Assembly: GCA_016187515.1 (NCBI GenBank)
Contig: JACPJN010000005.1
Span: forward strand, 1 to 56,390
DNA from: Candidatus Uhrbacteria bacterium
Lineage (GTDB): Bacteria; Patescibacteriota; Patescibacteriia; GWA2-47-26
Length of the DNA stretch: 56,390 nt
Reading direction: 5' to 3'
In this document: positions 7,405-41,831 of the stretch, piece after piece
How positions within the stretch are numbered: position 1 is the first letter of the stretch
Layout of the letters: each line of letters begins with the position of its first letter
Position numbers and translations under genes: made by a program
Notes under the pieces: generated by a model
Told to the model about the DNA's origin: nothing
Seen by the model: only the letters and a program-made list of their open reading frames with translations
Database searches by the model: none

Positions 7405-9003
7405 ATGTCCACACGGCTAAAACCAGTGGTACTCATGATCCTTGACGGATTTGGCATAGCGCCGCCGGGAAACGGCAATGCCATCACGCGCGCCAAGCTG
7501 CCGGTCTATAATCGGTTGATTAGAACGTATCCGGCAGTTACGTTGCGGGCTTCCGGCGATGAAGTCGGCCTTTCTTGGGGAGAGATGGGCAATTCGGAAG
7601 TGGGGCACTTAACCATCGGCGCGGGACGGGTGTTTTATCAGACCCTGCCGCGGATTAATAAATCAATTGAGTCCGGAGATTTTTTCAAAAACGAGGCCTT
7701 TGGGAGAGCAATCCGGCAGGTGAAAAAAGAGGGCGCGACCCTGCACCTTATTGGGCTGGTTTCTCCCGGAGGCGTGCATAGCCATCAGGATCATCTTTAT
7801 AAATTGCTGGAGCTGGCCAAGAAAGAAAAAGTTAAAAATGTCGCGGTGCACGCGATTCTGGACGGACGCGATACGATCCGCGATACCGGAGCGCAATTTA
7901 TCGAAGCCCTGCGGAAAAAGATGAAAGAATTTAAAATTGGAGTGATTGCCTCGATCTCCGGCCGGTATTTTGCCATGGATCGCGACAATCGCTGGGATCG
8001 CACGGGCAAAGCGTATCGGGCGATGGTCGGGAACGGGGAGCGGGGAACGGGGAACGTAGCAACGGCGGAAGATCCCAAAAAAGCGATAGAGCAATCGTAT
8101 AAGGAAAAAGTTTATGATGAGGAATTTGTGCCGACCGTGATTGTGGAAAAAGATAAACCAGTTGCGCCGATTTCCGGAAGCGACGCGGTGATCTTTTTTA
8201 ATTTTCGCGAAGATCGGATGCGGCAGCTGGTTAAGGCCTTCGCGCTTCCCACTTTTGATAAATTCGATCGCGGAGCTTTTCCTAAAGATGCGCTTTTCGT
8301 CACGGTAACCGAATACGAAAAGGATTTGCCGGTTATTGTGGCGTTTCCGCCCGAGATTATTACGACCTGCCTTGCCAAATTGATTAGCGACGCGAAACTC
8401 AAGCAGTTTCATATTGCCGAGACGGAAAAGTACGCGCATGTCACTTTTTTCTTCAATGGCATGACCGAAGCGGCGTTTTCGGGAGAGGATCGCGAGATTA
8501 TTCCCTCGCCAAAGGTGGCCGCTTATGATAAAAAACCGGAGATGTCCGCTAAAGCCGTCGCGGACCGAGTGATCAAAGAGATTCAAAGCGGCAAGCCCGA
8601 TTTTATCGCGCTTAATTTTGCCAATCCGGATATGGTCGCGCATACCGGAGATCTTAAGGCGACGATCGCGGGATTGGAAGCCGTGGACGCGGAAGTGGGC
8701 CGGATTGTTGAGGCGACGCTCGCGAAAGGGGGGATGGCCTTGCTTACCGCCGATCACGGTAACGCGGAAGAGCTCGTTAATTTGCAAACCGGCAAAATGG
8801 ATAAAGAACATTCGACGAATCCGGTACCTTGCGTAGTTATCGGCGCTGCTTACGAGGGCCAAGGCGGGCCGCAAATCGAGGCGGTCGGAGGCGATCTGTC
8901 GCTGCTCCAGCCGGTGGGCACGCTCTCGGACGTGGCGCCCACCGTGCTTAAACTGATGGGACTCAAAAAACCGAGGGAAATGACGGGAGTGCCGCTTGTT
9001 TGA
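7405..9003 (+). CDS. gpmI: 2,3-bisphosphoglycerate-independent phosphoglycerate mutase
   Basis: VVLMILDGFGIAP, MGNSEVGH, HAILDGRDT, TADHGNAE. Confidence 0.95.
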   Translation: MSTRLKPVVLMILDGFGIAPPGNGNAITRAKLPVYNRLIRTYPAVTLRASGDEVGLSWGEMGNSEVGHLTIGAGRVFYQTLPRINKSIESGDFFKNEAFGRAIRQVKKEGATLHLIGLVSPGGVHSHQDHLYKLLELAKKEKVKNVAVHAILDGRDTIRDTGAQFIEALRKKMKEFKIGVIASISGRYFAMDRDNRWDRTGKAYRAMVGNGERGTGNVATAEDPKKAIEQSYKEKVYDEEFVPTVIVEKDKPVAPISGSDAVIFFNFREDRMRQLVKAFALPTFDKFDRGAFPKDALFVTVTEYEKDLPVIVAFPPEIITTCLAKLISDAKLKQFHIAETEKYAHVTFFFNGMTEAAFSGEDREIIPSPKVAAYDKKPEMSAKAVADRVIKEIQSGKPDFIALNFANPDMVAHTGDLKATIAGLEAVDAEVGRIVEATLAKGGMALLTADHGNAEELVNLQTGKMDKEHSTNPVPCVVIGAAYEGQGGPQIEAVGGDLSLLQPVGTLSDVAPTVLKLMGLKKPREMTGVPLV

Positions 9004-11446: not shown

Positions 11447-12598
11447 ATGCCGATATTGGGAATTGACGCTTCGCGGGCGGTGAAAAAGGAGAAAACTGGG
11501 GTGGAGTGGTATTCTTGGCATTTGCTTCAGGCCATGCAGAAACTAGCACCTCCCGATTGGCGGGTTCGTCTTTATGTTCCAGAGGAAATTGGAAATTGGA
11601 AATTAGAAATTAGAAATTGGCAGTGGCGCGTGCTCAAGTGGATCGGGCGGGGGTGGACGCAGGGACGGCTCTCGCTGGAGATGATGAAAAGCCCGCCGGA
11701 TATATTGTTCGTGCCATCGCATACGATTCCGTTGGTGCATCCCGAGCGCACTGTAACTACTGTGCATGATGTGGTGTTCGCGCGACATCCGGAATTATAT
11801 GATCCTAAGGACTTGAAAGCGCAAAAGCGCGGACTGGATTTTGCTTTGAAGTTTGCCAGAAAAATTATTGTGCCGAGCAAGGCAACGCGGGAGGAGGTGG
11901 TGCGGGCAGGGGCGAGAGAGGAGCAGGTGGTAGTGGTGCCGCATGGAGTTGGTGTTGGTGATTGGGGATTAGTTAATTCGTTAATTCAAAACGAATCGTC
12001 TAATCAACCAATTAACCAATCAACCAATCAACGATACATTCTCTTCATCGGCCGCATTGAAAAAAAGAAAAATGTGCTGGGGTTGGTGCAGGCGTTTCGA
12101 CGGTTGATGCATAACGCCCCCCAACCCCCTCTTACCTTAAGAGGGGGAGACGAATTGAAGCTCGTGCTTGCCGGTTCGCTTGGCTACGGGGCAGAAGACG
12201 TACTCCAGGCCATCAAAACTTTCAAACTTGAGGACCGCGTGATACACTTAGGGTATGTGGAGCGCGCGCAGTATCAGACACTGCTAAAGAACGCCGCGCT
12301 CCTGGCATCCCCTTCTTTTGGCGAAGGATTTGGATTTCCGGTTTTGGAAGCCATGGCGGCCGGCGTGCCGGTGGTCTGTGCTGACTTGCCGGTGCTTCAC
12401 GAGGTTGGCGGCAACGCGGCGCAGTATGTTAATCCGCGCGATCCGGAAGATATCGCGCGCGGCATTGAAGGCGTGCTTCAAAATGAAATGCTGCAATCGG
12501 AAATGATCAAGCGGGGGAAGGAAATTGCGGCGGAATTTACCTGGGAAAAGACCGCGCGAGAAACTTGGAATGTGCTATGCAATATAGCTGGCCGCTGA
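11447..12598 (+). CDS. GT-B (GT4-like) glycosyltransferase with in-frame repeat segments
   Basis: MPILGIDASRAVKKEKTGVEWY; YILFIGRIEKKKN; SPSFGEGFGFPVLEAMAAGVPVV. Confidence 0.85.
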   Translation: MPILGIDASRAVKKEKTGVEWYSWHLLQAMQKLAPPDWRVRLYVPEEIGNWKLEIRNWQWRVLKWIGRGWTQGRLSLEMMKSPPDILFVPSHTIPLVHPERTVTTVHDVVFARHPELYDPKDLKAQKRGLDFALKFARKIIVPSKATREEVVRAGAREEQVVVVPHGVGVGDWGLVNSLIQNESSNQPINQSTNQRYILFIGRIEKKKNVLGLVQAFRRLMHNAPQPPLTLRGGDELKLVLAGSLGYGAEDVLQAIKTFKLEDRVIHLGYVERAQYQTLLKNAALLASPSFGEGFGFPVLEAMAAGVPVVCADLPVLHEVGGNAAQYVNPRDPEDIARGIEGVLQNEMLQSEMIKRGKEIAAEFTWEKTARETWNVLCNIAGR

Positions 12599-23899: not shown

Positions 23900-24019
23900 A
23901 GGTACTCGCAAAGACCACTGGTCGTTTTCAATCACCTATAAACATCGTATCGTGTTCAGATTTCTTAGCGGCGATACGGTGTATTTTGTTGATGTAGGAG
24001 ATCACTCGATATATCTATG
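23900..24019 (+). pseudogene. RelE/ParE-type toxin C-terminal remnant
   Basis: Frame reads VKGTRKDHWSFSITYKHRIVFRFLSGDTVYFVDVGDHSIYL*; no start codon or N-terminal half; follows the RHH antitoxin. Confidence 0.6.
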
Positions 24020-24271
24020 AAACTTCAATTTCAAAAATCCGAAATTGGAAATGCGGCCGTATTTATCCGCCGTTGCGGATATGGAGAGTATTACGATCGG
24101 CGGATGAGAAAAACCAGCTATATGAAGCGGGCGCGGATGAGCGATATGTTTCCGCGTTACCATGTCTATATTGAAGAGCAGGGCGAGGAGGTCGTGCTCG
24201 ATTTGCATTTGGATCAAAAACGGCCGAGTTATGAAGGGTCGGCCATGCACAGCGGGGAATATGACGGGGCG
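24007..24271 (+). repeat. 265-bp direct repeat, copy 1
   Basis: Gap-free match to 25546-25810, about 10 substitutions, all in the first half. Confidence 0.9.
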
Positions 24272-24304
24272 TTTGACAGGTTGGGCTGTTTGTGCTATTA
24301 TTAA
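24017..24304 (+). CDS. Small hypothetical protein (paralogue A)
   Basis: MKLQFQKSEIGNAAVFIRRCGYGEYYDRRMRK..., nearly identical to 25557 ORF. Confidence 0.6.
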   Translation: MKLQFQKSEIGNAAVFIRRCGYGEYYDRRMRKTSYMKRARMSDMFPRYHVYIEEQGEEVVLDLHLDQKRPSYEGSAMHSGEYDGAFDRLGCLCYY

Positions 24305-25274: not shown

Positions 25275-25545
25275 AGGAGCTCGTACCTCGGACTCTTGGG
25301 TCTCGGGGATCATGGACTTCGGTCCTTGGTTCTCGAGCCCTTTTTTAATTTACTGCATTATGATATTCTGGCATTGGAGAGTAGGCTCATGAATCTTGAT
25401 TGAAGGATCAAGATCGCCGAAATCCGCTCAATTCGCAAAAGCCGCCAGAGTCTTCACTTATTTGTAAGTGTTGAGCGTGTGGCGCGAATGATGAGTACTC
25501 CGTGCTTCTTTTTGGGACTGGTCTATACAAAGAAGCGAGTCCCGC

Positions 25546-25810
25546 CGATATATCTATGAAACTTCGATTTCAAAAATCAGAAATTGGAAATGCGGCCGTA
25601 TTTATCCGCCGTTGCGGATATGGCGAGTATTACGATCGGCGGATGAGGAAGGTGAGTTATATGAAGCGAGCGCGGATGAGCGATATGTTTCCGCGTTACC
25701 ATGTCTATATTGAAGAGCAGGGCGAGGAGGTCGTGCTCGATTTGCATTTGGATCAAAAACGGCCGAGTTATGAAGGGTCGGCCATGCACAGCGGGGAATA
25801 TGACGGGGCG
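25546..25810 (+). repeat. 265-bp direct repeat, copy 2
   Basis: See 24007-24271. Confidence 0.9.
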
Positions 25811-25903
25811 ACGACAGCAGGTGAAAAAATAACAAATAACAAATTCCAAATTACAAACAAATCACAAACTCCAATGATCGAAATTACAAATTCAAGTTTG
25901 TAA
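25557..25903 (+). CDS. Small hypothetical protein (paralogue B), C-terminus extended through a repeat element
   Basis: Same as 24017 ORF, then TAGEKITNNKFQITNKSQTPMIEITNSSL read from repeat DNA. Confidence 0.5.
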
Positions 25904-27624: not shown

Positions 27625-27637
27625 AAAATACAATCGC

Positions 27638-27777
27638 TTGACCCCGCGCCTTAAGGCGGATATGTAAAATGAAAAATGCGGAGAGCGAGACAGTCTTTGA
27701 TTACAGGGCATAGCCCCGCACACGATTGTACCCCACGGCGTGTTGCGCCGAAGTCCGCTTAAGGCGCGGGGTTGACA
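27638..27777. mobile_element. MITE-like element copy 1, about 21-bp terminal inverted repeats
   Basis: TTGACCCCGCGCCTTAAGGCGGA...GTCCGCTTAAGGCGCGGGGTTGACA. Confidence 0.75.
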
Positions 27778-27800
27778 CGCTATTATTCTTGCGTTAGGAT
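27772..27800 (+). promoter_or_regulatory. Promoter TTGACA-17-TAGGAT; -35 is the right end of MITE-like copy 1
   Basis: Hexamer spacing. Confidence 0.65.
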
Positions 27801-27870
27801 AAGAAATCGTATCCTGTCAATGGTGGCCGGGATGCGGGTTCCTTTTTTGCGCAACAAGATGGAGGAGAAC

Positions 27871-29967
27871 ATGAACGGTAAAGAGTTGCCGATTTGGGCG
27901 GTCATGCCGCAAGTACTCGCTCCTCTGCGGGAGGGGCGCAATGTCGTCGTTACGTCTCCGACCGGTTCCGGGAAGACCACGCAGGTTCCGCAGGCCATCC
28001 TTGATTCCGGGCTTGCCTATGACGGTATGATTTTCGCGGTTCAGTCACGGCGGGTCGCGTGCCGGGCTGCCGCGGTGCGCGTGGCCGAAGAGCGTGGCGC
28101 ACAGCTAGGTCGGGAGATTGGCTACATTGTTCGGTACGATAGGAAAACGTCCGAAGGTACGCAGATTTGCTTTGTAACCGATGGCGTGCTGATGCGTTTC
28201 CTGGAGAAGGATCCGGAACTGCGCAAAGTGAGCGTCGTCATTCTGGATGAGTTCCATGAGCGGCGGATGTTGTCCGATGCGGCGCTCGCGCTGATGCGGC
28301 AGGTGCAGAAGAAGCGCACGAACCTGCGGCTTGTCGCGATGTCGGCCACCCTCGATACGCTCGCGGTGCAGAAATTTCTTGATGCCGCGGTGGTGGACTC
28401 CGGAGGGGAAAAACTTTTCCCGATCGAGATCCGCCAATTCGGGAGAAGGCCGTTAACCAGGATGCTTCCGGAACAGATCGCAACGAGCGTACGCAACCTG
28501 TGCAGTAGCGGGAAATCCGGTCACATTTTGGTATTCCTTCCGGGCAAGGCCCTTATCCAAGATACGCGGCAAATGCTTACGCGCCGGGCCGAAAGATTTC
28601 CAAAGGAGTTTGCCAATACGGTCGTATTGCCGCTTCACGCGGAGCTTTCCGAAGAGGAACAGGATCGGGTCTTTAAGCCGACTGCGGAGCGCAAGATTAT
28701 TCTCGCGACCAACGTGGCCGAGACCTCGCTGACCATTCCCGGAGTGACCATGGTGGTTGATTCGGGATTGGAGCGTCGCGCGCGGTACTCTCCGCACAGC
28801 AGTATTACGCACTTGGGGATTGTTCCGATCTCCAAGGCATCCGCCACCCAGCGTACCGGCCGGTGCGGCCGCGAAGCGCCCGGGATTTGCGTGCGGCTGT
28901 GGTCGGCGAGCGAACATGCGCGCCTTGAAGCGCTGACGCCCCCGGAAATTCGGCGTACGGATGTGGGTGGACTGGTACTGTCGCTCAAAGCCGTAGGTGT
29001 CAATGAAGTTGGGAAGTTCCAATTTTTTGAGCCGCCTTCGGAAGAGCGACTCGCGAAAGCGCAAGAGTTGCTCACGAGATTGGGCGCGCTTGATCAAGGG
29101 GGAGGTCTGACCAAGATTGGTTGGAAAATGCTCCGCCTGCCGCTTCCCCCAAGACAGGCCAGAATGGTGGTTGAAGCACGAAAGAGCCGATGTCTGAAGA
29201 TGGTGTCAACGATTGCCTCTTGCATGCTTGATCCCTCAATTTTCGCGCGGCCGATGGGAAAGCGTGAATGGGCGCAAGATCAGCATCGCTCGTTCGCGAT
29301 TGATGATACCTCGGATTGCTTCAGTTTCCTTCAGCTCGTTCGCGAGGCCGATCATTTTAAGTTCAGTCCGGAGTGGTGTACGCGGCATGCAATCAATCGA
29401 AGCGCGCTTCTTGAGGCGTGGCGGTTGCGTTGGCATGTAATGCGCGCGGTGCATCGGATTGATCCAATGCATGTGGCGCCCGGACGAGAGCCCCACTTGC
29501 CTTCGCTTAGGGAACAGCGCGCGGTAATCCGCCGTTGTATTGCCGCCGGACTGGTGGACCGGGTTGCGCGGCGCGTGGCGCCCGGGCGGTACGAGCTTTG
29601 CACCGGAGCTGTCGTGGACCTTGACCAGGGCTCGGTGGTTGATGCGGAGTGGATCGTTGCCGGAGATATGCGCAAGGTGGGTACCACCAAAAAAGCGCCG
29701 GTTCGAATTTCGCTTGCCACCATGGTAGACCTTCCGATGATGGAGCAATTGGCGCCAACGCTCTTTCGAAGCAGTCGCGAGGTGATTGAGCGCTACCCGC
29801 TTACCAAGACCGCGCGGGTGCGTCGTGAACGCCGCTATCTGAACCTTGTTCTTGAGCAGGAGGAAGGATTGGTCGCGGACGGAAACGCCGGCGGAGAAAG
29901 CGGGCTTGCAAAACGCCTGGCGCCGCTCTCCGAGGCCGTTGCGCGGCTTACCGGAAAAACCAAGTAG
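27871..29967 (+). CDS. HrpA/HrpB-like DEAH-box ATP-dependent helicase
   Basis: VVTSPTGSGKTTQVPQAIL, VILDEFHERRMLSD, VAMSATLD, QRTGRCGREAPG; GGAG SD before ATG 27871. Confidence 0.9.
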   Translation: MNGKELPIWAVMPQVLAPLREGRNVVVTSPTGSGKTTQVPQAILDSGLAYDGMIFAVQSRRVACRAAAVRVAEERGAQLGREIGYIVRYDRKTSEGTQICFVTDGVLMRFLEKDPELRKVSVVILDEFHERRMLSDAALALMRQVQKKRTNLRLVAMSATLDTLAVQKFLDAAVVDSGGEKLFPIEIRQFGRRPLTRMLPEQIATSVRNLCSSGKSGHILVFLPGKALIQDTRQMLTRRAERFPKEFANTVVLPLHAELSEEEQDRVFKPTAERKIILATNVAETSLTIPGVTMVVDSGLERRARYSPHSSITHLGIVPISKASATQRTGRCGREAPGICVRLWSASEHARLEALTPPEIRRTDVGGLVLSLKAVGVNEVGKFQFFEPPSEERLAKAQELLTRLGALDQGGGLTKIGWKMLRLPLPPRQARMVVEARKSRCLKMVSTIASCMLDPSIFARPMGKREWAQDQHRSFAIDDTSDCFSFLQLVREADHFKFSPEWCTRHAINRSALLEAWRLRWHVMRAVHRIDPMHVAPGREPHLPSLREQRAVIRRCIAAGLVDRVARRVAPGRYELCTGAVVDLDQGSVVDAEWIVAGDMRKVGTTKKAPVRISLATMVDLPMMEQLAPTLFRSSREVIERYPLTKTARVRRERRYLNLVLEQEEGLVADGNAGGESGLAKRLAPLSEAVARLTGKTK

Positions 29968-30001
29968 AAAAATCCGTCCATCATGGCGGTGAGGTCGCAG
30001 A

Positions 30002-30022
30002 ATATCGCGACCTCTTTTTTAT
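30002..30022 (+). terminator. Terminator GAGGTCGC...GCGACCTC + T6
   Basis: Hairpin followed by TTTTTT just after the helicase. Confidence 0.8.
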
Positions 30023-30118
30023 TGAGGGGTCACTCCGGTGGGGTGTTGATAAGTGATTATTAAGTGTGGTATACTCAATTTGACAGGAATCTAAGCAGAT
30101 GGTAAAAGGATAAGCGAT

Positions 30119-30340
30119 ATGGGCATTGAGAATACATTCTATCTTTTTGCAAAGCCTTCATTTATTGAAGGAGTTGGGCGCGTACTTGACTTAGGTGGAG
30201 TACTTGATACCTATAACATCAGTACAACCCCAGCCGAAGCAGATGCCAAGGCACTCCGCACTGATTGGATGGCAGTCGGTAATGATCTAAGGAGTGCCAT
30301 GCAACAATATGCAAGCCAATTCTCCGGCGTCGCAAGATGA
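30119..30340 (+). CDS. Small hypothetical protein, 73 aa
   Basis: MGIENTFYLFAKPSFIEGVGRVLDLGG...; overlaps the next ORF. Confidence 0.6.
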   Translation: MGIENTFYLFAKPSFIEGVGRVLDLGGVLDTYNISTTPAEADAKALRTDWMAVGNDLRSAMQQYASQFSGVAR

Positions 30341-30716
30341 ACGACGTATCTTTTCCGCTACTCAAGAATTACATGTGGGTCCTCTTCCGAAGCCGCAAGA
30401 TTTCGAGTATTATGAGCGAGTGTTGCCCGGAGCTGCTCAAAGAATACTCGCGATGGCGGAACAGCAATCAATGCATCGGCGCAAGCAAGAAAATCGCGTG
30501 ATCCTGGGAGATTTGATAAAATCGGCAGTCGGGCTCCTTTTTGGATTTTTGATAGGTATGGCGAGCATTATAGGAGGGATTTGGTTGGTATATCAAGGTA
30601 AATCAGTAACAGGAGGGTTTATTAGTTTTACAGGCGTTGCAGCATTGACAAGTGTTTTTGTCTATGGTTCTCAACAACGCAGGAGAGAACGCGAAGAACG
30701 ACGAATTACTAATTGA
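30306..30716 (+). CDS. DUF2335-like membrane protein
   Basis: GPLPKPQDFEYYERVLPGAAQRILAMAEQQ plus two TM helices. Confidence 0.65.
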   Translation, partial: NMQANSPASQDERRIFSATQELHVGPLPKPQDFEYYERVLPGAAQRILAMAEQQSMHRRKQENRVILGDLIKSAVGLLFGFLIGMASIIGGIWLVYQGKSVTGGFISFTGVAALTSVFVYGSQQRRREREERRITN

Positions 30717-30831
30717 ACGATTATAATAATAGAGAAAAAAACGGCCCGCAAAAACATCGCGGTCCATTTTCTTATAAACTGCCCTCGCGATCTTGACGGA
30801 AAGCATAGGAGGCGGTACTATCCTTTTGCTC

Positions 30832-31351
30832 ACAGGGAACTGGATGGTCGCTGCCCCGTGCTTAAGGCGGGGGAGAGGAAAGTCCGGACACCCTCCGCAG
30901 CAATGCGGAGAAAAAGGTACCAGCTAACGGCTGGGCATCTTGACCGGGATAACTCCGACGCTTCGGTCGGAGAAAAACCGGCTGACGGACAGTGCTACAG
31001 AGACCATACTACCCGAGCGTCACCCACTCTCTCCTCCCAGTGTGGGTTAATAGCCCCACTGGTCAGGGTGGCGTTGGGGAAAGGTGAAAAGTGAGGTGGT
31101 GTTGAATTATGTGCTTCGCCCAAAAGGTGGCGCATGTAAAACGGCTACACCTCTTCCCGGCAGGCAACTGTCGCGGAGGAAAACCCTACCTGGTGCAAGG
31201 CCTAGAGCCGCTTGAGCCCAATCGCGAGGTTGGGCCTAGAGGAATGACCGTCGCCTTTTGCGCAGGGCCTTGTTTGGCAAGTATCCGCAAGGATACTTAG
31301 TCAGCCGAAGCTTTGGCAGGAGGAACAGGATCCGGCTTATAGGTTCCTTGT
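30832..31351 (+). ncRNA. rnpB: RNase P RNA (bacterial A type, enlarged, about 520 nt)
   Basis: GAGGAAAGTCCGGACA, ACAGTGCTACAGAGACC, GAGGAAAACCC, AGGAATGACCG, ATCCGGCTTATAGG; P1 ACAGGGAA/TTCCTTGT; promoter TTGACG-17-TACTAT upstream. Confidence 0.93.
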
Positions 31352-31389
31352 GAGCGTTTTTGACGTTTTTCAAACGGAAGGGGAACGGA

Positions 31390-31593
31390 ATGTCTGCAAA
31401 AAGAAAAAAGAAGGCAAGAGGTCAGCCATTGCCACAGGAATCCATACCACAGAAGAGTGGCCCCCCCGCAGTGATAAAGGATGCGGACGGCAATGTGGTT
31501 CGTTTGGTTGCTACGCCCGAGCAGGAAAAGGAGGTTCTACGGAAAATCGTGAGAATACTGCTTGGCTCAACCTCATCATCCTCTTCTAAATAA
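31390..31593 (+). CDS. Small basic hypothetical protein
   Basis: MSAKRKKKARGQPLPQES..., directly after rnpB. Confidence 0.5.
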   Translation: MSAKRKKKARGQPLPQESIPQKSGPPAVIKDADGNVVRLVATPEQEKEVLRKIVRILLGSTSSSSSK

Positions 31594-31704
31594 GGTGGCA
31601 CTGCGGTACCTATTCATCAATCAACGCGCGCCAATTGGGGCGAGCGTGCTCTTTCTCGCCCGGCATGAATGTGTTGGGCGCTTTTCTTTTTTAGGTACAG
31701 GTGC

Positions 31705-31750
31705 TTGACACGCACCACTTGGTGTGTAATAATGCGGACATGCTCTTTGA
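31705..31750 (+). promoter_or_regulatory. Promoter TTGACA-16-TAATAA plus boxA-like TGCTCTTTGA (31741-31750)
   Basis: Motif begins at the predicted start site. Confidence 0.7.
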
Positions 31751-31775
31751 TATATGAGCAGGAAAGGAGACGATC

Positions 31776-32672
31776 GTGATAAATACCGTGCTGGTTGGGA
31801 TTTTGTTCTTCATTGTGGTTGCAAGCCTTCTCACGATCGTGAGTTGGATTGCCGCGAGGTTTGCGCAACTCTATCCAAAGAAGGAAGGGCTTTTTGCCGC
31901 CGGGTCGAAGCAGTCTCATTCTGACGAAGCGCGCCCGCTCTCTCTCGCTCAAAAGGTATTGATAGGGGTGGTGTTAGTTCTGACTACGATTGTTGTACAA
32001 GTCATTGAGCAGAGAACCGGTCTCCGTATCTTTCTCATCGCCAGTTACTGGTGTGGGGTTCGGTTGCTTGTATTGCTTGTGCAAGAAACGATGGGCGACT
32101 CGCGCAACTCCGTTGTTTGGTGTGTTACATCATGGAGTATCCCAACCATTATTACGGCCGGATGGATGGGATTTCCCAATTGGGTAACGCTCAACAGCAC
32201 CGGCATAATGATAGTGTGCGCAATGTTGATTACCATGCGGCATATTTCGCCTCGCGCGGTGGTCATTATTTCGTTTGTGATCATGGTGTTCGACATCGTT
32301 GCGGTCTACGCCTCGGACATCATGCTCAAGATAGTAGGAGTGTATGACGGAATGCCCGGAATGCTTTGGGTGCCAAAGGATTGGTCGCTTGCTGGAGGGT
32401 TTGGAGTACAGAATAGAATCATGGATCTTGGGTTGGGCGACTTGTTTTTTCCGGGCCTTTCCATGATATATATCGCGCGGATCGCGCTTGAGAAGAATGC
32501 AATCGCGTCGGTTGTCGGCGCGTATCTTGGATACATTTTCGGCGGCGCAATTGCGATGAGCGTCTCTGCGGTAACCCACACGGGGCAACCGGCCACGATC
32601 TTTCTCATCCCCGCGGTGTTTGTCGGATACCGACTGGGAAATGCACTTGCGCAACCGCAGGTTGCGCAATAG
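31776..32672 (+). CDS. Presenilin/signal-peptide-peptidase-like intramembrane aspartyl protease
   Basis: FDIVAVYASDIM, LGLGDLFFPGLSMI (GxGD), QPATIFLIP (PAL-like) in a polytopic membrane protein; GTG start with AAAGGAGA SD. Confidence 0.8.
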   Translation: MINTVLVGILFFIVVASLLTIVSWIAARFAQLYPKKEGLFAAGSKQSHSDEARPLSLAQKVLIGVVLVLTTIVVQVIEQRTGLRIFLIASYWCGVRLLVLLVQETMGDSRNSVVWCVTSWSIPTIITAGWMGFPNWVTLNSTGIMIVCAMLITMRHISPRAVVIISFVIMVFDIVAVYASDIMLKIVGVYDGMPGMLWVPKDWSLAGGFGVQNRIMDLGLGDLFFPGLSMIYIARIALEKNAIASVVGAYLGYIFGGAIAMSVSAVTHTGQPATIFLIPAVFVGYRLGNALAQPQVAQ

Positions 32673-32736
32673 CTTCCGCCCGGCGCTCTCTGCGCTGTGG
32701 CGGACTTTTTTATTTATTCAATAAATGCTACAATGT

Positions 32737-32878
32737 TTGACCCCGCGCCTTAAGGCGGACATGTAAATATAGGGTAACTCAAAAACCAGGTGAACTTTAA
32801 TTGTATCCCTGAACTTACTCATAAAATTGCACCAAGCGGCGCCTTGCGCCGAAGTCCGCTTAAGGCGCGGGGTTGACA
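32737..32878. mobile_element. MITE-like element copy 2
   Basis: TTTGACCCCGCGCCTTAAGGCGGACATGTAAA...GCCGAAGTCCGCTTAAGGCGCGGGGTTGACA; ends match copy 1, interior diverged. Confidence 0.75.
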
Positions 32879-32917
32879 GCCGAGCCAAAGGGTGGTAGGT
32901 TGAAAGGTCCTTTGACA
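32873..32917 (+). promoter_or_regulatory. Promoter TTGACA-17-TAGGTT plus boxA-like GGTCCTTTGACA; -35 is the right end of MITE-like copy 2
   Basis: Hexamer spacing; motif at predicted start. Confidence 0.65.
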
Positions 32918-32958
32918 ATAATGGGCAACAGGCCCAAAAACAGAAAGGTAGAAAACCC

Positions 32959-33678
32959 ATGTATTCCGACATGGAGGCGCGGCTGGCCGCGCTGGAACAA
33001 CGACTGGGCGTGGAGTTCAAGGATCGCAAGCTACTGCTGGAGGCGGTAACGCACCGTTCCTACCTGAATGAAAATCGGAGGCATCCGGTAGGGCACAACG
33101 AGCTTTTGGAGTTCTTGGGCGACTCGGCGCTTGAACTCGCCATCACCGAGTACTTGTTCAAAAGGTTCCGCGGCAAGGAAACCGAAGGTGTGCTTACCAA
33201 CTTTCGCGCCGCACTCGTCAATCTGGATTCGTGCGCCACTATCGCCATCGAGTTGAAGCTCGACGAAGCGATCCTCATGTCGCGCGGAGAAGTCAAGTCA
33301 GGGCGCGGTTCCAAGAGTTGGCGCGTCATCATGGGTAACGCCATGGAAGCAGTGCTTGGCGCGATCCTCGTGGATCAAGGAATCGGCGCGGTGCGGCTGG
33401 TGGTGGATGCGCTTTTCAGCGCGCGTTTTTCCCAGATCGTCGCGCGCCACGAGGATCCCAAGAGCGAACTTCAGGAGTTGGTGCAGGATCGTCAAAGCAT
33501 CACTCCGCATTACAGTGTGGTGCGCGAGTGGGGCCCGGATCACGCGCGCCATTTTCGGATGGCGGTGTATGTGGGCTCCATGAAGATCGGGGAAGGGGAA
33601 GGAGATTCCAAGCACGAAGCGGAAAAACAGGCGGCGCGGGCAGCTCTCAAAACCATCAACCGTCAAAGTGACGCTTGA
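32959..33678 (+). CDS. rnc: Ribonuclease III
   Basis: AVTHRSYLNE, NELLEFLGDSALELAI, MGNAMEAVLGAI, C-terminal dsRBD. Confidence 0.95.
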   Translation: MYSDMEARLAALEQRLGVEFKDRKLLLEAVTHRSYLNENRRHPVGHNELLEFLGDSALELAITEYLFKRFRGKETEGVLTNFRAALVNLDSCATIAIELKLDEAILMSRGEVKSGRGSKSWRVIMGNAMEAVLGAILVDQGIGAVRLVVDALFSARFSQIVARHEDPKSELQELVQDRQSITPHYSVVREWGPDHARHFRMAVYVGSMKIGEGEGDSKHEAEKQAARAALKTINRQSDA

Positions 33679-33732
33679 GGTAGCGGGGCATTGCCCCCCT
33701 GCCTTAAGCGCCTCTGGAGAAAGGAAAACAAC

Positions 33733-36024
33733 ATGTCCGACACGGATGATACCTTGTTTCATCGGGACTTTGAGGGTAAAGAAGGCCGCCAGTTGGACGC
33801 GATCGAGGAGGCGCGTGCGGTACTTCCTTTTAACCGAAACGACGAGCTTGACAAATACTTCGCCGCGTTCAAGCGGTATCCGAAGTTCCCGAATCGGGAA
33901 GCGTTTTTGGAAGCGCACACGCGCTTTCGCGCCGGCGCAACCGAGGAAGAACGCTTGGCGGCGCGCGACGAAATCGTGTATCGCAACGCGCGGCTGGTGT
34001 TTTCGGTGGCCTACCCCATGTCAGGTCGCGGCCTTGGGCTTTTGGACATGCTCCAAGAAGGAGCAATTGGACTCATGACCGCGCTTGAGAAGTACCAGGT
34101 CGAGCTGGGCTACGCGTTTTCGACCTACGCCACGCACTGGATTCGGCAGGCAATCAGCCGGGCGATCACCGAGCTCAACGAAAGGCGTCCGTACCGAATC
34201 CCGGTGCATGTCGCGGATAAGATGTGGCCGGTACAGCAGATCATTGAGAAGCATGTGCTTGAACAGGGTCAGTGGCCCAAGCCCAAAGAGGTGCTGGAGG
34301 AGCTGCAGCGCAGTGACAGTATCACTGACCGTCAGACCACGCTTGGGCAAGTTGTGGCGTGCATGCGCATCTTGCTCGAGGGGTATGTGTCGCTCGATCA
34401 GTCCGTCGGTGAGTACCAAGACGACGGCGATTTACCTACTCTCGGGACCATCGTAGAAGACGAACGCGTGGACACCGAATCCGTGGTAGAAGCGCGGCGC
34501 ATGCTTCACGAGTACGAGCAAGCGTTGGCCCGCATCGAGGCCGAGGTGGACAAGCTTGATCCGCGCAGTGCCATGGTCATCCGACTGCGCTTCGGTTTTG
34601 GCGAGTTTGACTCCATGACACTCCAAGAAGTGTCCGAGCGCTACGAGATTACTCGCGAACGCATCCGGCAGATTGAGGTCAAGGCGCTTGGTCAGCTGGG
34701 AGAGATACTCAGCGTCACCGGCGAGGAAATCAGCCAGATCATCGCGGCAGTGACCGAGCTTCGAAACATCACGGGTGCAGAGCCGGCAGAGCGGGCGGCG
34801 GAAACTGCGCCGGAGAAGAATGCTTCGGTCGTTGCGTCGCTTGATCATTTGTTCGGCTTGCTCTGCGAACATGTCATGCTCACCCCCGCAGGATTGCGGA
34901 TCGTGAAGGCGCCGCTTGCCACGCTTCAAGTGCGCGGGCGGCTGATCTATGGCGAGGCGTGCGCTGCGCTCGGCGAACTCCAGACGCGCGGGTTGATCGA
35001 GGGAGTTGCGCCTTGGGTGATGATCAAGATCATTCCCGAGGTGGCAATTCCGGAGTACCGTCACGGCGCCGGTCAGATGGGCAAGAGGGACGTGGAAGAA
35101 GATGACGAGGAAGTGGAAGATGCGGCTGACGAGGGCGCTGATGGAATTGTTCCCTCACCCCAACCCCCTCCCACCGGGCTCGCGGAGCGATCCAAGGGAG
35201 AGGGGGTCTGTGTACCGGTGGTGGTTGCGCCGAGGGTGGCGGGTTCGCCAGAAGCGAAGCCGCGCGGACGACCGCCGGCTAGTCAGTCCGGGATTCAGCA
35301 TTTCCCGGCGCACAAGGGTCCGCAAAAGCGTCGCGCGGGTGTCATCCTCGATCGGCTGACCTATGCCGAGGTGTACGAGGTGCTTACCTCGCGGGCGAGC
35401 GCAGTGTCTGGCGAACGGGTGGTGCGTGGCGCAGCGCCCATCCTCGAGACCTGGTTCAAGATCTGGACGCAAGACGCGACCCGGGTCTTGGAAAAGCTCG
35501 CGGAACAAGGGTACATCACTGCGCGCGACGGTTTCCGAGTAATCGTACTTCATTACGATCGTCTGGACCGGCAGGAGCTGATGTTCGGGGTTGGAGTTGT
35601 TTCCGCACCCGCTCCGACTGCGGTCGGAGCACCCTCTCCTGTCGGGAGAGGGGAACGTCGCGCGGTATTTTATGTGCCGCCAAGCGGGGCACAAGACCCC
35701 GTGCTTCGGGTGATTCCGGGCGGTGAGGCGTCTCCGCGCAAGGAGGCCGCGGTGCGTGCTCCTGCGCCTCTGGCCACGCAGCAGGCGCGAGGACCCCGCC
35801 ACGATGTGCTCGATACGGCGGTCCGCTGGATCGAGCAGCAGCTTCCGCACCTGCGGGCTTCGCTTGGCGAGGCGCACGAGCGGCTGGTCAAGCTTGAGGT
35901 GGCGTGTATCACCTTGAGAAAGGCGCGCGACGGCCATCAGCAGACGGCCTCCGCGGTGGAAGGCGCGATTGCCGAAATGGAGTCGGCAATGCAAGAGTTC
36001 TTTACTTTGCTTCGGCAGGGCTAG
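33733..36024 (+). CDS. Sigma-70 family sigma factor with about 400-aa C-terminal extension
   Basis: Region 2 NARLVFSVAYPMSGRGLGLLDMLQEGAIGLMTALEKYQVELGYAFSTYATHWIRQAI; region 4 MTLQEVSERYEITRERIRQIEVKAL. Confidence 0.88.
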   Translation: MSDTDDTLFHRDFEGKEGRQLDAIEEARAVLPFNRNDELDKYFAAFKRYPKFPNREAFLEAHTRFRAGATEEERLAARDEIVYRNARLVFSVAYPMSGRGLGLLDMLQEGAIGLMTALEKYQVELGYAFSTYATHWIRQAISRAITELNERRPYRIPVHVADKMWPVQQIIEKHVLEQGQWPKPKEVLEELQRSDSITDRQTTLGQVVACMRILLEGYVSLDQSVGEYQDDGDLPTLGTIVEDERVDTESVVEARRMLHEYEQALARIEAEVDKLDPRSAMVIRLRFGFGEFDSMTLQEVSERYEITRERIRQIEVKALGQLGEILSVTGEEISQIIAAVTELRNITGAEPAERAAETAPEKNASVVASLDHLFGLLCEHVMLTPAGLRIVKAPLATLQVRGRLIYGEACAALGELQTRGLIEGVAPWVMIKIIPEVAIPEYRHGAGQMGKRDVEEDDEEVEDAADEGADGIVPSPQPPPTGLAERSKGEGVCVPVVVAPRVAGSPEAKPRGRPPASQSGIQHFPAHKGPQKRRAGVILDRLTYAEVYEVLTSRASAVSGERVVRGAAPILETWFKIWTQDATRVLEKLAEQGYITARDGFRVIVLHYDRLDRQELMFGVGVVSAPAPTAVGAPSPVGRGERRAVFYVPPSGAQDPVLRVIPGGEASPRKEAAVRAPAPLATQQARGPRHDVLDTAVRWIEQQLPHLRASLGEAHERLVKLEVACITLRKARDGHQQTASAVEGAIAEMESAMQEFFTLLRQG

Positions 36025-36037
36025 GGTAAGTGAAACC

Positions 36038-36078
36038 CTGGGGCGGCGGTTCTTCGCGAACCGACCGCCCCTTTTTTA
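36038..36078 (+). terminator. Terminator GGGGCGGCGGTTCTTCGCGAACCGACCGCCCC + T6
   Basis: GC-rich hairpin plus T tract. Confidence 0.85.
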
Positions 36079-36122
36079 TTGACGAGATGCCACGGATGTT
36101 ATATGGTATGGATGGTTCTTTT
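36079..36122 (+). promoter_or_regulatory. Promoter TTGACG-17-TATGGT plus TGGTTCTTTT at predicted start
   Basis: Same geometry as other boxA-like promoters. Confidence 0.6.
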
Positions 36123-36133
36123 AAGGAGAAACC

Positions 36134-37054
36134 ATGGCTCATGAGCACGATCCTGTAGAACAGTTGAGCAGCGTAGTTTCCGCGTTGCGCGCGATTCAAC
36201 CCCGGTCGCCGGCGCCAGGTTCAAAAGATGTGGCACCGGCAATCGTGCCGAAGTGTCCACGCATTACAGAACTGCGTCTTCCCAGCGGGCATCAACCACT
36301 GAAAAAGTTTCAGCGCCGCGCCGCGCCGGATCTGCCCGTGGTAGAGGAAATAGTGAAAGACGGTCACCCGTATGATGTGATCGGGCGTGCGCTTGCCGCT
36401 TATTACGGGGTGGAGGTCATGTTTATCTATGGCTTGACGCGCGAACAACCGTCAGCGCTGGTTCGCCAAATCATGATGTATCTGATCGTGCGCGTGCTGG
36501 AAGTACCCCAGGCGGAGGTTGGACGGGTGTTTGGATATGATCACACCACGATAATGAGTGGATGCAATAAGGTGGCGAAGTTACGGACGCTGGATGCGCG
36601 CCTTGACGAACAATTGACCGCGTTTGGTCAGCAGTTCGCACCCCTGCGGGAAAAGGTTGCGCCATTCCGGAGAGTAGTGAACAGCCCGCTTACGCAAGCC
36701 ATGTACGCGATTGTGCAAACCCACCGCCAAGCCGAATCGCAGGTACAGGCGCAATCCGCGGCTGAACTGGGGCTTACTTCATTTCCCCCGGGAATGTCTC
36801 CATCGCGCCTGCGCTGTTATCACGCAATTGTGATGGCCTTTCATGCGGGGAAGCTGGAGAAAATGGCGGCGATCAGTGCAAATCTTCCCCGAATGCTGAC
36901 CCTGCGTTTTGGGCTGGATCAGCTTGATCGGCCGGTGTACCGCACACTCCAAGAAGTTGCTGACCTGATGAACGTGAGCCGGCAGCGGGCGCTTCAAATT
37001 GAACAGCGCGCGTTCAAACTTTTGGGCATCACGAAAGAGAAATCCGCACCTTGA
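36134..37054 (+). CDS. DnaA domain-IV-like plus sigma-70 region-4-like fusion protein
   Basis: RQIMMYLIVRVLEVPQAEVGRVFGYDHTTIMSGCNKV (DnaA IV signature) and LRFGLDQLDRPVYRTLQEVADLMNVSRQRALQIEQRAFKLL (sigma r4). Confidence 0.75.
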   Translation: MAHEHDPVEQLSSVVSALRAIQPRSPAPGSKDVAPAIVPKCPRITELRLPSGHQPLKKFQRRAAPDLPVVEEIVKDGHPYDVIGRALAAYYGVEVMFIYGLTREQPSALVRQIMMYLIVRVLEVPQAEVGRVFGYDHTTIMSGCNKVAKLRTLDARLDEQLTAFGQQFAPLREKVAPFRRVVNSPLTQAMYAIVQTHRQAESQVQAQSAAELGLTSFPPGMSPSRLRCYHAIVMAFHAGKLEKMAAISANLPRMLTLRFGLDQLDRPVYRTLQEVADLMNVSRQRALQIEQRAFKLLGITKEKSAP

Positions 37055-37113
37055 GCCGCAGGCCGTTTACCGCGCAATGGTCAACGGCTTTTTTCTTTGC
37101 AAATTGCAAGCCC

Positions 37114-37160
37114 TTGACACGCCTGAAAATTGTTGCTACATTAGAGCCAGTGTTCTTTGG
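37114..37160 (+). promoter_or_regulatory. Promoter TTGACA-17-TACATT plus boxA-like TGTTCTTTGG
   Basis: Motif at 37151-37160; second CCCTTTGACATG about 20 nt later. Confidence 0.7.
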
Positions 37161-37207
37161 GCATGGTGCCCTTTGACATGAGCAAAAACGAGCAGAAGGA
37201 GGACGCC

Positions 37208-39484
37208 ATGACGCACGCGGAAATTCGACGCGCGCTGGCGGAGCGTTTGCGCGCCCTTCTTGGGGCGCATCAGAATCTTCCGATTTCGCTGCGGCCCTAC
37301 CAGTTGGAAACACTTCGCGCCATCCTTTCCTTGCTTGAAGATCCGGAAGGCAGCCGGCGCGGCTATGTGGAACACGCGACCGGTCTGGGCAAGACCGTGC
37401 TGTTTGCGGCGCTGGCCGGGTTCTGTACGGATCTGCGCGTGCTGATTGTGGTGCCGAGCTTGATCCTGGTTGAGCAGACGGCGAGAGCGGCCGTGAAGTT
37501 TACCGGCGGCATGCTGGGCTACTTGGGCAGCAATCCGTCAGTGACGGATGAGCGCGGACAAGTGATTGCGATGCGCGGACACAAATTTTCCAATGTGGTG
37601 GTTACCACGGACGAAAGTTTCGCGCGCAGTCCCCGCCGCATTGCGGAGGAGTTCAATCCGCATTTGATCGTGTTTGACGAGTGCCACTGGGCCTATACCG
37701 GAAAGTCGTCGTGGGCGCTGACTCTTTTCCCGGAGTCGGTGATCATCGGGTTTTCCGCCACGCCGGATTATCTGACCACGACTGCGCGATCCGACTACAC
37801 GCCAGTGGCGCTCGATAACGGCCAGACGCTTTACGCGCCGCCCGCGCGGCTGGCGCAGCACGAGTTTGGCACGCTGATTGATAAGCGCACGGTGCCTTGG
37901 GGCGTGAGTCAAGGATGGCTTGCGCCGCTGGCCTGGAGCCGGGTGGAATTTGATGTCTCGCTTGACGGCCTACCGGTCAATGAGGGCGAGGGCGGCATGG
38001 ATTATCAGGTCAATGCTTTGACCCGGTATATGGAGCAGGAATGGTGGAGGATGATGCGTGCGATACGCCGCGTGTACGGAGAAGGAAGGTACGGACTTGC
38101 GAATCGGCAAGTATTCGCAGTTTGCCCCTCGGTGGTAGCCGCGAATGAGCTTGCTCGCGCAATTTCCGAGCTGGGGGTTTCCTCGGCCTGCATCACCGGG
38201 CATACGCCCGGGCAGGAGCGACATCGGATTCTCCGGGCCTACGCCCGCAATGAAGTACGCCTGCTCACCTCGGTTATGGTTTTGCGGGAAGGATGGGATG
38301 CTCCTAACGCCGAGGTCTGCCTCATGATGCGGCCGACCAAGTCGCGCGTGCTCTATGTGCAGGCCGTCGGGCGCGTACTGCGGCCTTCGCCTGATGGCAA
38401 GGACAAGGTTGCGCTGGTGCTGGACGGGCACTTTAGGGATACCATCTTCCAGCCGCTTTCCGCGCCGGTCTTGTTTGCGCCGGTAGGAAGAACTATGGCT
38501 ATGGGTGAGATTATCCTGCAAGTGAACCAAGGCGCAGCAGGTCCGGCACGGCCGGTTAAATCTCCCTATGTGGTTGACGGCGCGGATACGTACACGGTTG
38601 AACCGATCGCGCTGGAACATCACGCCGGGAAAGACGGGACGTTCGTGGATAACGGCGAAATTTGGGGTTCGGAACGCGGACTGGCCAAGAAGCTGGGAGT
38701 CGACATTCACTATATCCAGACCTGGGTAATCCACAGCAAGGCGCGTACGCGGGTTGCCAAGACCGAGACCGGACAAACCGCAACCTTTTACGCGTTGTCT
38801 GATGTCGTGGCTGCGGCACACACGACGGGCTACCATTCGGATGTGCAGTCCGGAGCGATCGCAGATCGCGCGAAAGCGGCCTTGGCCGAGGTGCGCCAGC
38901 GGTCGGTTGCGGCACTTCCTGCGCCAAAGGCGGTGAAGGAGATTCCTGCGGCTGTGGCACAGCCGGTAGTGATTGAAAAGGTTGTTCCCTCGCCGGTTAC
39001 GCCGAGGGTGTCAGCCCCAGTTCAACTGGAGCTGAAGGCGCCTGTAAGCGGATCGTTGGTCGTGGAAAAGAGGGAAGTGCAACCCGAAGGCGTAGCGCCT
39101 CCGTGGGCAGCAGCCGGATCTGGCTGGGGTCAGGTGATTGAATTCAGACCGCGGCCTGTAAGACCGTCTCCCAAGGCGCGACCAGTGGCGGCGCCAGCGA
39201 CGGTCGTTCCTACCAAAGCCAAACCGCGCAAGAAAACGCGAAAGGCGGAGGCGCAGAGCGATCTCCGCGGGCTTCGCCGCGGATGGATCAGTGCTGCGCA
39301 AAGCGTACTTGGGAAAATCCAGCGCAGGGTTGACCTTCGCACGCAGGACCGCAAGGTTCGCGAGCTTCTGCGTATTGCCAAGGAGCTGGCGCGGCTCGAG
39401 CGTTCCGGTACGCGCAAGGTTCGCAGGAAAAAGCACCATACGCTTCGCGTGAAGAACGCAAAAGCGGCGGGCGAGGATGAGTAA
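37208..39484 (+). CDS. SF2 (DECH-box) helicase with C-terminal HTH-like domain, paralogue 1
   Basis: ATGLGKTVLF, VFDECHWAY, GFSATPDYL, VLREGWDAPNAEVCLMMRPTKSRVLYVQAVGRVLRP; SD AGGAGG before ATG 37208. Confidence 0.85.
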   Translation: MTHAEIRRALAERLRALLGAHQNLPISLRPYQLETLRAILSLLEDPEGSRRGYVEHATGLGKTVLFAALAGFCTDLRVLIVVPSLILVEQTARAAVKFTGGMLGYLGSNPSVTDERGQVIAMRGHKFSNVVVTTDESFARSPRRIAEEFNPHLIVFDECHWAYTGKSSWALTLFPESVIIGFSATPDYLTTTARSDYTPVALDNGQTLYAPPARLAQHEFGTLIDKRTVPWGVSQGWLAPLAWSRVEFDVSLDGLPVNEGEGGMDYQVNALTRYMEQEWWRMMRAIRRVYGEGRYGLANRQVFAVCPSVVAANELARAISELGVSSACITGHTPGQERHRILRAYARNEVRLLTSVMVLREGWDAPNAEVCLMMRPTKSRVLYVQAVGRVLRPSPDGKDKVALVLDGHFRDTIFQPLSAPVLFAPVGRTMAMGEIILQVNQGAAGPARPVKSPYVVDGADTYTVEPIALEHHAGKDGTFVDNGEIWGSERGLAKKLGVDIHYIQTWVIHSKARTRVAKTETGQTATFYALSDVVAAAHTTGYHSDVQSGAIADRAKAALAEVRQRSVAALPAPKAVKEIPAAVAQPVVIEKVVPSPVTPRVSAPVQLELKAPVSGSLVVEKREVQPEGVAPPWAAAGSGWGQVIEFRPRPVRPSPKARPVAAPATVVPTKAKPRKKTRKAEAQSDLRGLRRGWISAAQSVLGKIQRRVDLRTQDRKVRELLRIAKELARLERSGTRKVRRKKHHTLRVKNAKAAGEDE

Positions 39485-39627
39485 GGAAACAAACTCATCT
39501 CCGCCCGTTTTTTGTTTTTTGTCTAAAATTTTTTGCAAAAATTTTAGGTACAAAAACCAATCCGCCGAGCTACAGGTGCCTCGGAGCCGAATGGTATGGG
39601 CGGTGGGCAGAGAGGCGGATATGTCTC

Positions 39628-39682
39628 TTGCAAGCATTGAGTATCTGTGTTAATGTCTTTGTAGGTCAGAAGACCTTTGACA
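39628..39682 (+). promoter_or_regulatory. Promoter TTGCAA-17-TAATGT plus AGACCTTTGACATT
   Basis: Weaker hexamers; leader motif near +8. Confidence 0.45.
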
Positions 39683-39713
39683 TTCACCAATAAAAAAGAA
39701 AGGAAGGAGAGTC

Positions 39714-41831
39714 ATGCAGCATCCAGATATTCGCCGTGCGCTTGCGGAGCGGCTGCAGGCCCTCCTGGAGTCGCAAGAACGGCTGCCGATCAAACCGCGT
39801 CCGTACCAGTCCGAAACGCTCGGTCGTACCGCGCAGTGGCTTGAAGATTTTGGCGGGACTCGCCGCGGCTATGTTTCCCAAGCCACCGGTTTAGGCAAGA
39901 CCTGGCTTTTCTCGGCCATGGTCAGCCACTGCACCGGCCTGCGAACGCTGATCGTGGTGCCCACCAAGGTTCTGATTGAGCAGACGGCGCGTTTTGTGGT
40001 GCAGTTTACCGGCGGACTCATCGGACATCTTTCCGGTCTCAAGCAGATTCGACGCGCTGACGGAGAGGTGGTCGCCGTGCGCGGCCATGAGCACTCGGAT
40101 GTGGTCATCACCACGGATGAAAGTTTTATCAAGCACGCGGGCAAAATCGCTTCCGAGTTTGGACCGCATCTGATCGTGTGGGACGAATGCCATTGGGGTT
40201 ACACTGCCGAAGCGCAACGGGCGCTGGCGGCGTTCCCCGAGGCGGTCGTGATCGGGTTTTCCGCAACGCCGGACTACCTCGGCACTGCGGCGCGCGGTGG
40301 ATTTGTGCCGGTTACCCTCGACAATCGTCAAGTGCTTTACGGCGATCCGCAGCGGCTCGCGGCAACGCACTTTGGTACTTTGATTGACGAGCGGACGGTG
40401 CGGTGGGGCATTGAGAACCAGTGGCTGGCACCGTTTGCCTGGGGCATGCTGGAGTGCAACATCGCGCTTGACCAACTGCCTACGGCGCTTACCGGTGCGG
40501 GCATGGATTATTCCGAAAACGCGCTTCAAACGCTCATGTCGCGGCACTGGTCAACGATCGTTGAAGTGGTGCGACGCTTGTACGCGGATGCGCAGTACAC
40601 GCTGGCGCAGCGTCAAGTGTTTGCGGTGTGTCCGAGCGTGAAAACCGCGGAAGCGCTCGCCAAGGCAATCCATGAAAGCGGGGTGCGCTCCGCTTGCATC
40701 ACGGCGGCAACTTCGGATACGGAGCGCAATGTGGTTCTGGCTTCTTACGCCACCGGCGAGATCAAGTTTTTGACCTCGGTCATGGTGCTTCGCGAAGGAT
40801 GGGATGCTCCCAACGCCGAAGTGTGCCTTATGCTCCGGCCGACCAAGTCGCGGGTCTTGTACCTGCAGAGCATGGGGCGAGTCCTGCGGCCCGCGGCAAA
40901 TGGCGGACGCAAGGTCGCGCTAGTGGTGGATGCGTTTTCCCAGAGCGAAAAGTTTTCCGCGCTTTCCGCGCCGGTGCTTTTCGGCGAGCCCGGGAAGTCC
41001 GTGCGCGAGCGCGCGATTCTCTTGGGGCCGAAGCTTCCCACTGCGGATGCTCCGGAAGAAACTTCGCCCTATCTGCCCGAAGGAGTGCAACCGCGGCTCG
41101 TGTTCGTACATCCGCTTCAGATCGAGTACTGGGTGGGCAAAGACGACATCCTTGAGTTGGACGGGGAGACATGGGCACTGGCAGGTGTACTTGGAAGATT
41201 GTTTAAGCTTGATCCTAACACGGTTAGGAGTCGCTTAGCTCGAGCACAGGTACGCACCAAGGAGATGAGAGGTGGGCGTAGCCAAATCAACACCTTTTAT
41301 TGCGTTTCTGATGCTCGTCAAGCATGCGCTGACCTGTTGCGCTTTCCGAGAGCCGGGGCGAAGGGTATGTTCCGTGCCGATAGTCGGTTGTGGGCAAGCC
41401 CGCCGGCGCTTTACTCTTGGTTCGGTATCAAAAGAGCGCGGGTGATAGAGGGTCGGATTAAGACGCACAAAATACGGCCTCGGAAAGGACGAGACCGTTC
41501 GGGCAGGGTTGCCGATTTCTATTCTGTGGTTGCGGTGAGGAAGATCTGTGGGGATTTGGTGGAAGCATCGCGGGTGGGCCTGACGCACCACGGCATACTA
41601 AAGGTCCGAGGCATGCTCTGGGTAAGTCGGAGTGGACTCATACCACTCTTGAAGGCAGATGCACACACGATCGCAGCGTATTTGCAATCTCCGATGGTGC
41701 GGCGCCTTCAAGCCAGGAATCGGGCTGGACGTGTAGTGACTGTATATGCTCTTAGGGATGTACGGAAGCTCCGTCATAGTATGCAAAAAGGCACCAGCAG
41801 AGACAAGGTGTCAGTTGAGAAAGAAACTTAG
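39714..41831 (+). CDS. SF2 (DECH-box) helicase with three C-terminal HTH-like repeats, paralogue 2
   Basis: ATGLGKTWLF, VWDECHWGY, GFSATPDYL, VLREGWDAPNAEVCLMLRPTKSRVLYLQSMGRVLRP. Confidence 0.85.
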   Translation: MQHPDIRRALAERLQALLESQERLPIKPRPYQSETLGRTAQWLEDFGGTRRGYVSQATGLGKTWLFSAMVSHCTGLRTLIVVPTKVLIEQTARFVVQFTGGLIGHLSGLKQIRRADGEVVAVRGHEHSDVVITTDESFIKHAGKIASEFGPHLIVWDECHWGYTAEAQRALAAFPEAVVIGFSATPDYLGTAARGGFVPVTLDNRQVLYGDPQRLAATHFGTLIDERTVRWGIENQWLAPFAWGMLECNIALDQLPTALTGAGMDYSENALQTLMSRHWSTIVEVVRRLYADAQYTLAQRQVFAVCPSVKTAEALAKAIHESGVRSACITAATSDTERNVVLASYATGEIKFLTSVMVLREGWDAPNAEVCLMLRPTKSRVLYLQSMGRVLRPAANGGRKVALVVDAFSQSEKFSALSAPVLFGEPGKSVRERAILLGPKLPTADAPEETSPYLPEGVQPRLVFVHPLQIEYWVGKDDILELDGETWALAGVLGRLFKLDPNTVRSRLARAQVRTKEMRGGRSQINTFYCVSDARQACADLLRFPRAGAKGMFRADSRLWASPPALYSWFGIKRARVIEGRIKTHKIRPRKGRDRSGRVADFYSVVAVRKICGDLVEASRVGLTHHGILKVRGMLWVSRSGLIPLLKADAHTIAAYLQSPMVRRLQARNRAGRVVTVYALRDVRKLRHSMQKGTSRDKVSVEKET

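Follow-up and report, generated by a model that had tools for sequence, protein, structure and literature searches.

What could a protein do that carries domain IV of DnaA near one end and a sigma-70 domain 4 at the other, and where did it come from? These questions are raised by a gene at 36134..37054 of the 56,390-nt window (the whole stretch of DNA that we analysed; window coordinates written with two dots are on the forward strand), which is the entire contig C5 of a 1.2 Mb Candidatus Uhrbacteria genome assembled in 10 contigs. The ORF is real and well bounded, with an ATG start 5 nt downstream of an AAGGAG Shine-Dalgarno sequence (36123-36128). It is preceded by a promoter-like site (TTGACG-N17-TATGGT, 36079..36107; a consensus reading only) and is separated from the upstream sigma gene by a strong hairpin with a T6 run, which reads as an intrinsic-terminator-like element at the 3' side of that gene (36040..36077). 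The 306-aa product is predicted to begin with a disordered N-terminus, followed by the DnaA domain IV (residues 81-147; 36374..36574), a helical linker and a C-terminal module (residues 201-306; 36734..37051), within which the sigma-70 domain 4 occupies residues 252-297 (36887..37024).

The assignment of the N-terminal half is consistent across sequence, profile and predicted fold. It matched the Pfam family Bac_DnaA_C (PF08299) with 53.1 bits (E = 3e-14; gathering cut-off 31.5), the fusion protein found the DnaA domain IV structure 1j1v when used as a phmmer query against the PDB (E = 9e-6), and a DnaA-IV profile built without the fusion protein recovered it (E = 1.6e-20, in a small database). 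The region reached a pLDDT of 92-98 in an AlphaFold model of the whole protein (30 sequences), and its best PDB match by Foldseek was again 1j1v (TMt 0.83, 1.3 Å). A reading of this DNA made from sequence only had credited the domain with a full DnaA-box-binding signature, which held in part: the positions of E. coli R399, R407, Q408 and of the DHTT motif (D433-H434-T435-T436) are kept, but those of R401, K415, L422 and P423 are altered (we take the roles of these residues in DnaA-box contact from the 1j1v complex). This half likely binds specific DNA, with a specificity that is uncertain. The protein resembles DnaA in the fold and DHTT motif of domain IV but differs in having sigma4 attached and no Pfam match to AAA+ domain III; because it lacks AAA+, it is, by its sequence, not a DnaA, and the DnaA profile TIGR00362 matched over profile positions 348-433 only (53 bits versus a cut-off of 343.9). 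It shares a DnaA-IV domain without AAA+ with stand-alone proteins (NCBIfam PRK06030, NF004686-NF004688; phage proteins such as PHROG 30669), many of which occur in viral contigs, but the second domain sets it apart from them (23.8 bits to NF004687 versus a cut-off of 181).

The C-terminal half matched Sigma70_r4 (PF04545) over the helix-turn-helix (HTH), residues 270-295 (26.2 bits, E = 6e-6; gathering cut-off 24.1). It also aligned with RpoD sigma4 (1tlh_B) over residues 236-297 in a phmmer search of the PDB (E = 0.004) and was recovered by a sigma4 profile built without the fusion protein (E = 4.6e-10, in a small database). In the full-length AlphaFold model this half was without aligned relatives and of low confidence, so that confident folds were local only; the two halves were aligned and modelled separately, because a mixed alignment had placed sigma4 rows on the DnaA half. 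Modelled alone with 7 sequences, the C-terminal half gave a pLDDT of 88-96 in its HTH region; its PDB matches, among the matches listed, were sigma factors, and the best compact one listed was domain 4 of sigmaA (4g8x; TMt 0.74, 2.0 Å, probability 1.00). The Foldseek E-values for the best matches of the two halves (0.0018 and 0.0037) are modest because the query domains are short. The module thus resembles the RpoD group in its C-terminal HTH, its LRFGLD-type lead-in and its fold, but differs in having no Pfam-detected region 2 or 3 and in two replaced residues: R584 and Q589 (E. coli numbering) are kept, while E585 has become Q and R588 has become L, all four being residues that we take, from -35 complexes, to contact the -35 element. 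As it lacks region 2, the protein is on sequence grounds not a sigma factor. Contact with RNA polymerase through this half is nonetheless plausible, because the half resembles a housekeeping sigma4 and its gene adjoins a sigma gene. SigO-RsoA, the split sigma factor of Bacillus subtilis, offers a likeness, in that a sigma4-bearing subunit would have to obtain region 2 function from a partner; it differs in that a complete sigma factor is encoded next to the fusion gene and that the fusion's sigma4 is carried together with DnaA-IV. Taken together, sequence and structure prediction describe a single chain that joins two DNA-binding modules, one of DnaA-IV and one of sigma4 ancestry, each folded separately. 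The pairing proposed by the sequence-only reading, including the absence of AAA+ and of sigma region 2, is borne out, and structure prediction recovered both folds.

Whole-fusion orthologues were found neither in 58 relatives, 384 genomes of the class and 384 of the phylum, nor in a phage set and a plasmid set, nor in viral contigs and 85,462 GTDB genomes, the last two scanned coarsely with exact 8-residue peptide words that detect close relatives only. In this exact form the fusion is apparently unique; each half is conserved in other proteins, but the pairing itself was found nowhere else. Open-access literature searches, PHROGs, NCBIfam and PADLOC agreed with the earlier statement that no characterised protein with this pairing is known: the three databases returned the two halves separately or nothing, and neither databases nor open-access literature yielded a described protein or system of the fusion or cassette kind. 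Each of the two domains is already known, also in stand-alone form.

Both halves have relatives within the source genome. Its three DnaA-IV domains belong to the full DnaA, to the fusion protein and to a 118-aa stand-alone protein (contig C6, 107.7 kb), which is better conserved than the fusion's DnaA-IV. Extra copies are rare in the class, since just 13 of 369 genomes, the source genome included, have more than one. The gene of the 118-aa protein (L037 4689-5045) adjoins an adenylate kinase-like gene and a membrane-protein gene. Viral relatives of the DnaA-IV half (80 loci) are mostly stand-alone proteins of less than about 240 aa, and none of the 80 tested carried a sigma4. At the other end, the last 100 aa of the fusion share 40% identity with the tail of a 377-aa paralog (C6:258866) and 43% with that of the paralog's relative in genome G075. 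These belong to an unnamed sigma4-tailed family with members found in 4 of 384 class genomes only (the source genome, G075, G322 and G186), whose N-terminal domain is not DnaA-IV and has no Pfam match. Because the C-terminal 100 aa are shared and the N-terminal domains differ, the fusion is best read as a tail from this family joined to a DnaA-IV domain. Elsewhere on C6 (L035 2156-4072), a FliA-like sigma gene is followed by a gene for a sigma4 protein in which Pfam detected no region 2, so that the genome holds a further pair of a sigma and a sigma4-only protein.

The fusion gene sits in a cassette (27772-41831) that also encodes an HrpB-like DEAH helicase (27772..29967, likely ATG at 27871), an RNase III (32959..33678), a sigma factor (33691..36024) with RpoD-like regions 2 and 4 and a 400-aa C-terminal extension, and two SF2 (ResIII/RadD-like) helicases (37157..39484, likely ATG at 37208, and 39714..41831). 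A better-scoring RNase III is present elsewhere in both genomes tested (at C9:12285 in the source genome); judged from these comparisons the cassette copies are extra, and the cassette, its RNase III being a second copy, is accessory. The rnc-sigma unit is preceded by an inverted-repeat promoter region (32735..32901, with TTGACA at 32873 and a -10 TAGGTT at 32896), of which a near-copy (27636-27800) precedes the HrpB-like gene; the repeat TTGACCCCGCGCCTTAAGGCGGA precedes both genes. A MITE-like inverted-repeat element, TTGACCCCGCGCCTTAAG, covers 27638-27777 and 32737-32878 and recurs at C7:92876-93004 and C10:2211, and its end supplies the -35 TTGACA to the HrpB-like and rnc units. A BoxA-like leader (CCTTTGACA) before three cassette genes was dropped, as genome-wide its relaxed pattern was not far above the control (31 hits versus 21). 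The MZA anti-phage system was rejected as an identity for the cassette (the cassette sigma matched MzaA with 193 bits against a cut-off of 800, through the generic sigma part only), as were other known defence systems, to which only generic sigma and helicase matches were found. Also in the window, two near-identical small ORFs (24017-24304 and 25502-25903), about 1.5 kb apart, represent a local duplication.

The cassette recurs at L090/L091, L093, L095 and L096 in Uhrbacteria and Magasanikbacteria, a group that we take to be class ABY1. A helicase scan of the 85,462 GTDB genomes gave 8 loci, of which 7 hold real relatives. Where such a locus comes from a named organism, this belongs to the Uhrbacteria or Magasanikbacteria; the eighth locus, from an alphaproteobacterium, is 24% identical. 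The helicase family was not found in viral contigs. One of the 7 is G290 (GTDB record JAJYXM010000016; loci L090/L091), which represents another family of the class and carries the cassette at a different chromosomal site in the same gene order as the window: an HrpB-like helicase (46% identical to that of the window) is followed, in divergent orientation, by RNase III, sigma, a DnaA-IV protein of 590 aa, another RNase III gene and an SF2 helicase. At L091 8363-9829, a 488-aa protein contains two stretches of RNase III, of which that at the N-terminus is weak, and looks like a duplicated or dimer-in-one-chain RNase III. The cassette helicases (window 37157-41831; L091 9854-12520) end in C-terminal repeats, several in G290, that resemble small DNA-binding units and have no Pfam name.

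Other copies vary in content. L096 encodes a helicase, the HrpB-like protein, a DnaA-IV protein of 213 aa, RNase III and sigma, together with a 759-aa protein that bears an extra sigma4 but lacks sigma region 2, and a helicase; in L093, RNase III and sigma are accompanied by a 405-aa protein (no DnaA-IV), the HrpB-like protein and a helicase; L095 has a long sigma and a helicase only; and L092, L094 and L097 have the helicase only within the stretch examined. The L093 and L095 cassettes contained no DnaA-IV domain within the stretch examined. DnaA-IV is thus present in other cassette copies too, one of which encodes an additional sigma4 on a different protein. The 400-aa extension of the window sigma recurs on the G290 DnaA-IV protein and on the L096 759-aa protein, and for this reason we read the cassette's DNA-binding proteins as having shuffled domains among themselves. 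As the sigma4 domains of L096 and of the fusion show no specific similarity, the parallel between them is one of domain type and not of orthology. Even so, the occurrence of DnaA-IV and extra sigma4 as separate L096 proteins supports a putative functional link between the two.

Direct repeats at two of the loci suggest that the cassette may be mobile. In G290 an intact comF borders it on one side and a 120-bp repeat of the comF 3' end, 94% identical, on the other; the two direct copies (L090 7258-7371 and 17955-18074), on either side of the cassette, are 99-100% identical outside one 6-bp indel and resemble attachment sites or a duplication. The minimal sigma-helicase pair of L095, from Magasanikbacteria, is flanked by direct repeats of 40 nt (95%) and 27 nt (89%) within 7353-7467 and 11664-11763. 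No direct repeats bounding the whole window cassette were found, nor did the genes listed include a recognisable integrase gene.

For the function of the fusion we tentatively favour, at somewhat less than an even chance, an accessory DNA-binding transcription regulator that works with RNA polymerase or with the cassette sigma. The DnaA-IV domain would bind a specific site, either DnaA-box-like or of diverged sequence; the sigma4 module would touch the beta flap of RNA polymerase or the -35 region, acting in concert with the cassette sigma or competing with domain 4 of a bound sigma; and transcription of cassette or host genes would be activated or limited as a result. Because region 2 is missing, the protein would not be expected to open promoters alone. 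This proposal draws on the recognition of both domains by sequence, profile and fold, on the order rnc, sigma, DnaA-IV protein, helicase that is kept in G290/L091, on the rarity of extra DnaA-IV domains in the class, on the presence of both functions as separate chains in L096, and on a gene with its own expression signals in an accessory cassette. Against it stand the absence of canonical DnaA boxes from the cassette, the E585Q and R588L replacements, the loss of some DnaA-IV contacts, a fusion seen once, an L096 sigma4 that is not specifically similar, and the cassettes of L093 and L095 without DnaA-IV in the stretch examined. The sequence-only reading had conjectured that the protein could recruit RNA polymerase to DnaA-box-like sites or antagonise DnaA; of this, the link with transcription gains indirect support from the position of the gene beside a dedicated sigma in a recurring cassette, and from the cassette copies that carry DnaA-IV and, once, an extra sigma4.

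Sigma4-like HTHs are often purely DNA-binding domains, and the replacement of E585 and R588 is compatible with a protein whose two HTHs both rest on DNA and neither on RNA polymerase. Such a bipartite protein, which we consider somewhat unlikely, could act as a repressor, bridge operators, or serve in the replication or partition of a mobile cassette. The many viral DnaA-IV proteins that manage without sigma4, and the inverted-repeat elements before two cassette units, would fit it; but those repeats also occur elsewhere in the genome and need not be a target, and the C-terminal module matches the housekeeping RpoD sigma4 specifically and adjoins a sigma gene.

The kept DHTT motif and R399, R407 and Q408 positions, with AAA+ absent, would also suit a competitor of DnaA that has no ATPase domain and restrains initiation by sitting on boxes at oriC or in promoters under DnaA control, with sigma4 adding a transcriptional output. 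We regard this as very doubtful: the K415, L422 and P423 positions are changed, the better-conserved 118-aa protein would suit the role, and TTWTNCACA boxes numbered 0 inside the cassette and 5 across the window against 3.7 expected, which is chance level. Canonical boxes of the TTATCCACA type were dropped as local targets on this count. A fusion that arose recently in this lineage, does little by itself and is possibly decaying would account for a singleton with diverged residues in both HTHs but is just as improbable, given an open frame with Shine-Dalgarno sequence, promoter-like site and terminator, and two domains still recognisable and predicted to fold.

Returning to the accessory regulator, a more specific version, which we think unlikely, would have the fusion bridge the recognition of DnaA-type sites and RNA polymerase in the service of the dedicated sigma. 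Its cassette (sigma, RNase III, RNA and DNA helicases) would then process RNA, be mobile, regulate itself and be peculiar to Uhrbacteria/Magasanikbacteria-type Patescibacteria. If this version is true, it would represent a class of transcription regulator, and perhaps of mobile element or defence island, that has no described counterpart. The regulation of tiny-genome bacteria is almost unknown. A DnaA-box reader and a sigma4 in one chain suggest that sites of the replication-origin type are linked physically and directly to transcription, and the repeated occurrence of the same domains beside a private sigma, helicases and a second RNase III suggests that these bacteria carry an accessory cassette that had gone unrecognised.
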